DNA from: Deltaproteobacteria bacterium
GTDB taxonomy: Bacteria; Myxococcota_A; UBA9160; SMWR01
DNA: 32,246 nucleotides
Reading direction: 5' to 3'
Assembly: GCA_019313245.1 (NCBI GenBank)
Contig: JAFDBP010000191.1
Span: 1 to 32,246 of the forward strand
Both the position numbers and the translations under genes were made by a program. Under the pieces are notes generated by a model, which saw only the letters and a list, made by a program, of their open reading frames with translations, was not told the origin of the DNA and made no database searches. Of the stretch, positions 2,492 to 18,105 are shown piece after piece (the stretch's first letter is position 1; every line of letters starts with the position of its first letter).

Positions 2492-5913
<3,422 letters not shown>

Positions 5914-15420: not shown

Positions 15421-16272
15421 TCAGCGCGTAATCAGTGTACCGACGCCGCCGTCGGTGAAGATTTCGAGGAGCACCGCGTGTAGTACGCGACCGTCGAGAA
15501 TCGTCGCGCTGGAGACTCCGTCCTCCAACGCTTCGATGCAGCAGCGGACCTTCGGAATCATGCCGTCGCGGACCGTCCCGACCTCGATCAGCTTTCGCAC
15601 ATCCTCCGCGCCGAGCCGGCTGACGACCCGCCCTTCCGCGTCCTTCACGCCTTCGACGTCCGTCAACAAGATGAGCTTCTCGGCGTGCAGCGCGCGCGCG
15701 ATCGCACCCGCGGCCTCATCGGCATTCACGTTGTGGGTGACTCCGTCCGCATCCGCCCCGATCGGAGCGATCACGGGCACGAAGCCGGACTCTGCGACCG
15801 CTGCAATCGACGCGGGGTCGACCGACACGACCTCTCCGACGCGGCCGAGATCGCGATCTTCGTGAAGGCGTCTCGTGACCTGAATCATTCCGCCATCACC
15901 GCCGGTGAGCCCGATCGCGCGCCCGCCACCCTGCTCGACCAGCGCGACGATTTCGGGATTGACCTTTCCGCCCAGCACCATCTCGACGACTTCCATCGTG
16001 GCATCATCGGTGACGCGAAGACCATCGACGAAACTGGATTCGATGCCCAGCCGAACCAGCGTCTCGCCGATCTGCGGCCCGCCACCGTGCACGATCACCG
16101 GGCGCAGCCCGATGTACTTGAGCAGGACCACGTCGATCGCGAACGACGCGCGCAGCTCGGGATCGCTCATCGCGCTGCCGCCGTATTTGATCACGATGGT
16201 CTTGTCGTAGTAGCGCCGCATGTAGGGCAGCGCTTCGATCAGGACCTCGGCCTTGTCGATCAGGGTCTTCAT
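15421..16272 (-). CDS. argB: Acetylglutamate kinase
   Basis: [86 protein letters not shown]. Start at Met 16270-16272; the ORF-track extension to 16500 runs into the palindromic element. Confidence 0.96.
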
Positions 16273-16335: not shown

Positions 16336-16560
16336 TAGGAGCTTGATCCAAGACTGTCGCCGTAAGGTCCGAGCGTCGATGCGCGCTGCTGCCAAGGCGC
16401 TCGATCGAGCCCTATGAGCCAGACCCAAAGGGTCTTGGCGACGACGCAAAGAGAAGTCGAAGACTTCTCCAGCTAGCAGCGCTAGGGCGATTGAGAGCAA
16501 CGCAGCCAGCGGTGATGCAGCGGCGCTCGGCCGACGCGACAGTCTTGGGTCACGCTCCTA
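16336..16560. repeat. 225-bp element with ~25-bp imperfect terminal inverted repeats and nested internal hairpins (candidate MITE or structured RNA)
   Basis: Left (+) TAGGAGCTTGATCCAAGACTGTCGC; right (+) GCGACAGTCTTGGGTCACGCTCCTA. The two are reverse complements at 23 of 25 positions, including a perfect 13-bp block (16348-16360 / 16536-16548). Inner stem CGCTCGG/CCGAGCG. Internal hairpins GAGAAGTC-GAA-GACTTCTC and AGACCC-AAA-GGGTCT. TA flanks both inner GGAGC/GCTCC ends. Confidence 0.75.
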
Positions 16561-18105
16561 ACCCTGAGGTCGACTCTCCTTGCGCGCCTTTGCGATCTCG
16601 TCCACGCAGTCGAGCAACCCCCTGTGCAGGAGCGCGTTGCGGACGGCTGCCGACATCGTCGCGGCGAGAATTTCGCCGGTTCGCGCCGAGGCGGAAACGC
16701 CGGGCTCCAGGAATGCGCGCATCACCCCCATCGTCTTGTTGCGAAACGAGATGGGGATGCAGAGCATCGCTGTGGCCTCACCGCCTTCTGGCGTGTCGAC
16801 CTCCGGATCGAAGCGGGGGTCCTGGCCGGGCTCATCGGTTGCCACCAGCCGGCCGGATTGCACCACGACGCCCGTAAGCCCGGAGTCGACCGGCAATTTC
16901 TCTCGATCTGCCTGCCCGGCGCGCTCGCATTGACTTTCGAGTACCAGTTCGCGGCCGTTCGATCGAAGCAGGTAGAGCGAAACCGGAGCGGCCGAAACCC
17001 CGCTGGCAACCACCGCGAGCGAACCGCGAATCACCCGGTCGGGCTCGACCTCGGAGGTGAGCACGTCGCAGATGGCGCGGGCCAACTCCGCGTCGTCGGC
17101 GACGCCGCCATCGGCCGCGGGAAGACCGACCTCCAGCGCCCGATCCGCCGCGATCTGCGCTTCGACCTGGGCTCGATCCGCGCGCGCTGCCGATTGGGCC
17201 TTGTCCCGGTTGCGCCAGCGCGCGATCAGCGGGCCGACCTGCAGCGCCATGATCTGCAACAGGCTGAGATCCTCGGAACCGAAAACGCCCCCGTCTCCGC
17301 GCTCCGTCGCGCACAGGACGCCGATCGGCCTGCCATCCCCCTTGAGCGGAGCCACCGCAAACGCGCCCGATCGATAGCGACCGTCGACGACCCGATCGGC
17401 GAAGCCCTCGTATTCGCCGATATCCGACACCGCGAGGGCCTTTCCAGCTTCGAGCACCCGGCCCGCCACGCCCGACCCCACCTCGACGGGATCCATGTCG
17501 GCCGGCTCGACATCACAACCCGTGGCACCCGCGACTCGGAGCAGCCCGGAATCGTCCTCGAGAAGCATCAGCGACGCCCTGGATACACCGAGCACATCCG
17601 CCACGGCGAGCGCCATCCGGTCGGCGAGCGCAGATCCCGATTCGCCGGCTTCCGATTCGCTCTCGAGCTCCTCGAGCTGGGATTCGAGCGCGGCGAGTCG
17701 CGAGCAGAGCGATTCCCAGCTCGCCTGAATTCCCGAACCCAACAGGGCTCGACGAACCGCGAGCACGAGTTCTTCGTTGTGGAGCGGCTTCGCGAGGTAG
17801 TCGCAGGCGCCGATCCGCAGGGCCTCGAGTACGCGGTCGTGATCCACCTGCGCGGACAGCACGATCACGCGCAGCCCGGGTCGCTCTTCGATCAGCCTGC
17901 GCAACAGATCGAGGCCGCCCGCTCCGGGCGCCCCGATGTCGAGGATGACGGCCCCCACCTCGGGCCGCATGGCCAGCTCGAAGGCGCCCTCTTCCCGATC
18001 TGCGGTGAAATAATCGATCGACGCGTCCCGCAGCGCATCGCAAATCGCCTCTCGAAAGAAGCGCTCGTCGTCAACGACGAGTACGCGGCTCGACTCTTCG
18101 GCCAT
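16558..18105 (-). CDS. REC-domain response regulator with two GAF domains, no recognisable output domain
   Basis: ORF 515 aa; RVLVVDDERFFREAICDAL...VILDIGAPGAGG...VIVLSAQVDHDRVLEALRIGACDYLAKPLHNEELV, then two GAF-like regions (VLGVSRASLMLLEDDSG...; VASGVSAAPVSLYLLRSNGRELVLES...). Confidence 0.85.
   Translation of the reverse strand: MAEESSRVLVVDDERFFREAICDALRDASIDYFTADREEGAFELAMRPEVGAVILDIGAPGAGGLDLLRRLIEERPGLRVIVLSAQVDHDRVLEALRIGACDYLAKPLHNEELVLAVRRALLGSGIQASWESLCSRLAALESQLEELESESEAGESGSALADRMALAVADVLGVSRASLMLLEDDSGLLRVAGATGCDVEPADMDPVEVGSGVAGRVLEAGKALAVSDIGEYEGFADRVVDGRYRSGAFAVAPLKGDGRPIGVLCATERGDGGVFGSEDLSLLQIMALQVGPLIARWRNRDKAQSAARADRAQVEAQIAADRALEVGLPAADGGVADDAELARAICDVLTSEVEPDRVIRGSLAVVASGVSAAPVSLYLLRSNGRELVLESQCERAGQADREKLPVDSGLTGVVVQSGRLVATDEPGQDPRFDPEVDTPEGGEATAMLCIPISFRNKTMGVMRAFLEPGVSASARTGEILAATMSAAVRNALLHRGLLDCVDEIAKARKESRPQG

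Follow-up and report, generated by a model that had tools for sequence, protein, structure and literature searches.

What is the long palindrome that lies between argB and a response-regulator gene in this genome: an RNA gene that belongs to the locus, or a mobile element that entered it? A preliminary description, made from the sequence of the 32,246-nucleotide stretch analysed here (the window), had proposed both. Both neighbouring genes read leftwards: argB (acetylglutamate kinase, identified from the open reading frame list and the relatives of its product) occupies 15421–16272 and the REC-GAF-GAF gene, whose domain names are those of the preliminary description, 16558–18105, each on the minus strand.

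A foldback element in the window

The 25-bp arms of the palindrome (16336–16360 and 16536–16560) are reverse-complementary at 23 of 25 positions and include a perfect 13-bp stretch (CCAAGACTGTCGC / GCGACAGTCTTGG), as had been described. An ungapped scan for spans of 60–319 bp found them to be the sole 25-bp pair in the 32-kb window that matches at 23 or more positions. The strand folds to −134.8 kcal/mol, compared with −88.5 ± 5.0 for dinucleotide shuffles (z = −9.3; none of 200 was as good), and every nested stem reported earlier is present. At the curated Rfam threshold no family matched anywhere in the window, and at the E-value threshold only weak matches to long-hairpin miRNA families appeared, far below their cut-off.

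The palindrome had been taken as an element of 225 bp. Aligning dispersed copies and insertion sequence (IS) ends places the boundaries at G16338 and C16558, and the covariance model match covers the same interval, so that the element proper is a complete foldback MITE of 221 bp (16338–16558, plus strand, with the CAAGG half of its core first) and the outer TA dinucleotides (16336–16337 and 16559–16560) are the target duplication of a CTAG site. The right TA, together with C16558, forms the TAG at which the GAF gene stops on the minus strand, and this stop codon was the insertion target; the left end lies 65 bp from the argB start codon (16272). The terminal inverted repeats (TIRs) are GGAGCTTGATCCAAGACTGTCGC on the left (16338–16360, plus strand) and GGAGCGTGACCCAAGACTGTCGC on the right (16536–16558, minus strand). 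Between them lie the two halves of a core, both on the plus strand and delimited in alignments A1 and A4: the 5′ half (TGCGCGCTGCTGCCAAGGCGCTCGATCGAGCCC; 16380–16412) has an invariant CAAGG at 16393–16397 and the 3′ half (16476–16519) an invariant CAACG at 16498–16502.

The 221 bp comprise a 160-bp element, a nested insertion of 59 bp and the TA of that insertion. In the 160-bp copies the apical loop is uninterrupted (CCCTAGCAGCGCTAGGGC); in the window its CTAG is occupied by a two-hairpin repeat (16415–16473, plus strand; TA flanks at 16413–16414 and 16474–16475), which accounts for the greater length. The hairpin with an 8-bp stem previously counted as part of the palindrome is real and belongs to this separate repeat (GAAGTC/GACTTC region). 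Free copies of the module occur in congeneric genomes and on four contigs of the own genome (C56:22675–22762, C10:3085–3155, C157:5105–5244 and C134:17102–17145). The module may have entered the apical loop later, with the composite then spreading as one unit. It represents a second dispersed repeat of about 59–64 bp with two hairpins (CTAGGAGC..GACGACGCAAAG..CCAGCTAG) and has no clear TIR beyond its G...C ends at CTAG; on C157 it is in tandem with a 63-bp period.

Dispersed copies and empty sites

A search of the own assembly with the window element returned two further full-length copies (90–93% identical), many fragments and three short copies that lack query positions 116–173, this short form being exactly 160 bp. 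Matches were obtained in 22 of 61 genomes of the same order, and a covariance model of the family detected it in 37 of 80 such genomes. Almost every complete copy has the form CTA-GGAGC...GCTCC-TAG. A search for elements on plasmids gave no match. In three congeneric MAGs (L083, L084 and L085), whose argB products are 98%, 98% and 92% identical to that of the window, the flanks align and the MITE is absent from the same site; the flanks of the empty site are 87–92% identical in L083 and L084 and 83–90% in L085, and the site in L083 reads CTCTAGCCC.

Dispersed copies with conserved TIRs in the own genome and its relatives, the check that had been proposed for a MITE, were thus found, and the single-copy syntenic non-coding RNA is refuted as stated, as the element is missing from the locus in three congeneric genomes. 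The family is short, non-coding and TIR-bearing (160–221 bp, outer arms 23/25), dispersed in many copies with the same ends, and flanked by a TA duplication at CTAG with three empty sites; its ends are also those of an autonomous transposon (below). The palindrome is therefore a dispersed non-autonomous transposon rather than an RNA gene of the argB/GAF locus. By every criterion that we tested this is a MITE family, and what sets it apart is a conserved core with multiple end types.

Solo ends of 27–60 bp, at CTAG and without the remaining element, are present in the own genome (G000) at C28:5680, C51:12307, C136:5412 and C112:4372, and appear to be remnants or excision footprints. Internal deletion derivatives occur in three families (L016:752–836 and L193:828–912, 85 bp each; L235:613–690, 78 bp). 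Two of them share a junction region next to CGATGC/GATGC repeats, and these derivatives suggest that hairpin-mediated deletion has recurred.

CTAG targets and stop codons

TA is the only consistent length of the duplication, and insertions at TTA...TAA (L197 and L202) exclude duplication of the whole CTAG. This tetranucleotide is rare, with 9 occurrences in the window against 31 expected and 143 in the fetched loci against 296 expected. Of 43 intergenic copies examined, 19 lie precisely against a TAG stop codon, and the window copy adds one more. A preference for stop codons beyond CTAG itself was considered and rejected: the other CTAG sites of these loci lie at frame ends as often as the copies do (24 of 29 against 32 of 46), and the position of the copies at stop codons follows from the CTAG target. 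There is also no orientation bias relative to the gene whose stop is used (12 same, 8 opposite; p = 0.50). Every element has G as its first base and C as its last, so that duplication of TA regenerates a TAG at either side, and insertion into a stop-codon CTAG rebuilds the stop and leaves genes unbroken. This CTAG/TA/G rule explains how such elements can enter stop codons without gene damage.

Ends shared with IS1182 transposons

Searching relatives with the TIR pattern TAGGAGCNNGACCCAAGA identified two places where it occurs as an inverted pair with a spacing of 1.4 kb (G028:C3 and G010:C168), whereas the reversed control pattern had no match there. Each pair (L223 and L224) encloses one long open reading frame, of 415 or 419 amino acids, that carries DUF772 (PF05598) and DDE_Tnp_1 (PF01609) domains and scores 305 and 327 bits against the NCBI IS1182 model NF033551 (cut-off 270). 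The first bases of the family consensus are identical to those of both elements at 16 of 16 positions. Both lie at CTAG, as does a third complete IS1182-type element with these ends, L239. Single ends of this type, again at CTAG, adjoin three fragments (L241, L242 and L243). The proteins of L239 and of the fragments are 61–69% identical to the L224 transposase. The transposase of the elements that share the TIRs is thus of the IS1182 family. We found no IS1182 transposase in G000, for which an assembly 84% complete in 308 contigs does not prove absence, or in several copy-rich relatives, whose assemblies are fragmented MAGs.

The preliminary description had assigned the TA duplication to a Tc1/mariner/IS630-type element. 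The duplication stands; the assignment is replaced by IS1182, because the open reading frames between the same ends score as IS1182. With ends that coincide with those of IS1182 elements, and a target of CTAG rather than bare TA, an IS630-type MITE is extremely improbable, the TA duplication being the one feature in its favour. A REP or REPIN element moved by a RAYT transposase of the Y1 type is also very improbable. The two ends of the MITE each form a small hairpin starting TAGGAGC, like Pseudomonas REPs, and as short palindromic dispersed repeats the two classes are alike; both the TAGGAGCGYGAC... ends and the nested module with its two hairpins resemble REPs only superficially, however. 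The own genome has no Y1_Tnp gene, 20 Y1 loci of relatives lack the hallmarks of the module save for one distant TAGGAGC end, and the MITE ends match DDE transposons of the IS1182 type. We therefore rejected a REP/RAYT origin of the MITE: Y1_Tnp searches and the hallmark scan found no Y1 transposase with flanking REPs, and no link to RAYT. Such an origin may still hold for the nested 59-bp module alone. RAYT-like Y1_Tnp genes number up to 30 in G042 and 11 in G028.

A core with apparently exchangeable ends

Many of the weaker model matches are foldbacks of 160–163 bp that have other ends but share the apical core, which sits equally far from those ends. A core-only model (A4, R3) matched 92 of 379 Myxococcota genomes, other classes included, usually with several to many copies; the copies that we read in other classes are mostly palindromes of 154–163 bp, many at CTAG. 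The core was absent from IMG/VR when searched as one exact gapped pattern, and the small sample of DNA from outside the phylum (0.5 Mb of argB loci) gave a single match, which came from a Myxococcales MAG.

Further IS1182 elements in the order have different TIRs, mostly at CTA...TAG, and core-bearing MITEs exist with the same ends. The TIR GGAGTCTGCGCGGCAG of IS1182 elements L363 and L366 recurs in MITEs of G061 and G024; GCAGGTTGCTGAAAAA (L362, with variants in L365 and L367) in those of G003, G318 and G255; GCAGCCCGTTGAAAAA (L358, L360 and L361) in G347; and GAAGCCCGGCCGAAAA (L350) in G046. These matches cover 14–16 of 16 bases, compared with mostly 7–8 for random TA-flanked sequences, a control in which the upper tail is due to genuine copies among the pooled sequences. 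Core-bearing elements thus have at least four end types that match the ends of different IS1182 transposons, and no matching IS was found for the types GTGTCC..., GAGCCCATCTCA... and GAAGTGG.... None of the autonomous IS1182 elements was found to contain the core, so the transposase in general does not require it in cis.

In one family with two TIR types, identity across the types is 0.89–0.94 for the cores and about 0.5 for the arms. The similarity between these cores exceeds that between either of them and the cores of other families that carry its TIR. Similarly, the G061 core is nearer to that of its congener G028, which has a different TIR (0.87), than to that of G024, which has a related one (0.84). 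As judged from identity values rather than a dated tree, this indicates that ends were exchanged around a retained core, the simplest reading.

Covariation and a fold probably under selection

Nineteen copies from 11 genomes and 10 genera align almost without gaps over 160–162 bp. Pairing-preserving double changes occur at 24 of the 54 consensus pairs, compared with 11.7 ± 1.8 in shuffles and 4–10 for slid structures; the core alone has them at 16 of its 22 pairs, and its 90 double-change cells compare with 19 after shuffling. Across many genera the copies keep a length of 160–163 bp, the internal-loop core (CAAGGCGCG...CGCAACGCAG) and strong stem covariation. Whatever the TIR type, the internal loops, CAAGG and CAACG, stay conserved and unpaired in every sequence or almost every one. 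Compensatory changes, which the preliminary description had proposed as a sign of an RNA, are thus strongly present and exceed shuffled and slid controls, although they occur within a dispersed MITE family rather than at a single syntenic copy, and the element belongs to no described Rfam family.

Two accounts of these changes compete with a fold that serves transposition. The core could be a functional RNA, transcribed from neighbouring genes, with a hairpin recognized by RNase III or another RNA-binding protein, for example. The hairpin would then process or stabilize messages, as has been proposed for ERIC, NEMIS and Correia repeats, and mobility would merely spread the element. Strong covariation, internal-loop bases conserved on both sides and the many copies directly behind stop codons fit such a role; the position at stop codons is accounted for by the CTAG target, however, orientation to the stop-codon gene is unbiased, and comparison with Rfam yielded no family at the curated threshold and miRNA-hairpin matches far below the cut-off. 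We regard both the functional RNA and its proposed action on messages as unlikely, at roughly one chance in four. Less likely again is that the double changes are a by-product of DNA palindromes, in which a template switch at replication rewrites one arm from the other, so that the two pair again. Such quasi-palindrome correction is an established mutational process, and internal deletions of 85 bp at the same position in two families (L016 and L193) imply that the hairpin is mutagenic. Yet template switching would erase conserved mismatches, whereas the CAAGG and CAACG loops stay unpaired and the length holds at 160–163 bp. The fold may be selected either as a transposition substrate or as an RNA.

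Proposed origin and relation to known elements

We propose that the feature is a non-autonomous foldback MITE mobilized in trans by an IS1182-family DDE transposase, with a core whose ends have been exchanged and a fold under selection; from the sequence comparisons we put the probability of this reading at about 0.85. A transposase from an IS in another cell lineage, or one since lost from the own genome, would act on TIRs of the GGAGCCTGACCCAAGACT type, and the core would have passed between TIR types by exchange of arms. The folded strand, as a cruciform or hairpin, may itself be under selection; the likeliest reason is that palindromic structure is handled during IS1182-type transposition. 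A folded substrate is plausible for this family, as IS1272, one of its members, is reported to recognize and replace inverted-repeat structures (PMC5678879) and ISPsy36, another, targets the palindrome GGCC (PMC8027508).

The MITE resembles the IS1182 family (NF033551), IS1272 included, in the terminal sequences that it shares with local IS1182 elements, a DDE transposase that would act in trans and a palindromic target. It differs in having no transposase gene and, in its 160-bp body, a folded core that the autonomous elements lack; furthermore, IS1272 is reported to replace its target without duplication (PMC5678879), whereas the MITE duplicates TA. Other bacterial MITEs (Correia elements, ERIC and NEMIS) are likewise intergenic foldbacks of 100–250 bp with TIRs and a TA duplication, and are mobilized in trans, as is proposed here. 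In contrast to these, the present family has a conserved phylum-wide internal-loop core set at a constant distance from its ends, several unrelated sets of TIRs and partner transposases of the IS1182 type. Searches of open-licence papers for IS1182 with MITEs, and for MITEs with conserved structure, returned no account of the family.

The usual view of a MITE is that of a decayed derivative, left by internal deletion from a single parent transposon. In this family it is the interior that is conserved, and the ends appear to be exchangeable between parents; if true, the MITE would constitute an independent lineage capturing transposases. More tentatively, and with somewhat less than an even chance of being right, the phylum-wide folded module may be a persistent parasite of IS1182 transposons that changes TIRs to follow the active transposase lineage, its fold kept by selection because a transposase, host protein or RNase recognizes it. 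The family offers a concrete system for asking why a fold is retained in some MITEs, and it is relevant to the structure-dependence that has been reported for transposition in the IS1182 family.

Genomes from other Myxococcota classes and families (G303, G349, G318 and G106) each have 13–27 core-bearing matches. In L350 (G016:C123), the IS1182-type element lies between several nested inverted repeats at CTA...TAG (1188–1386 and 3159–3357), which span about 200 bp per side, as if palindromic elements had inserted into one another.
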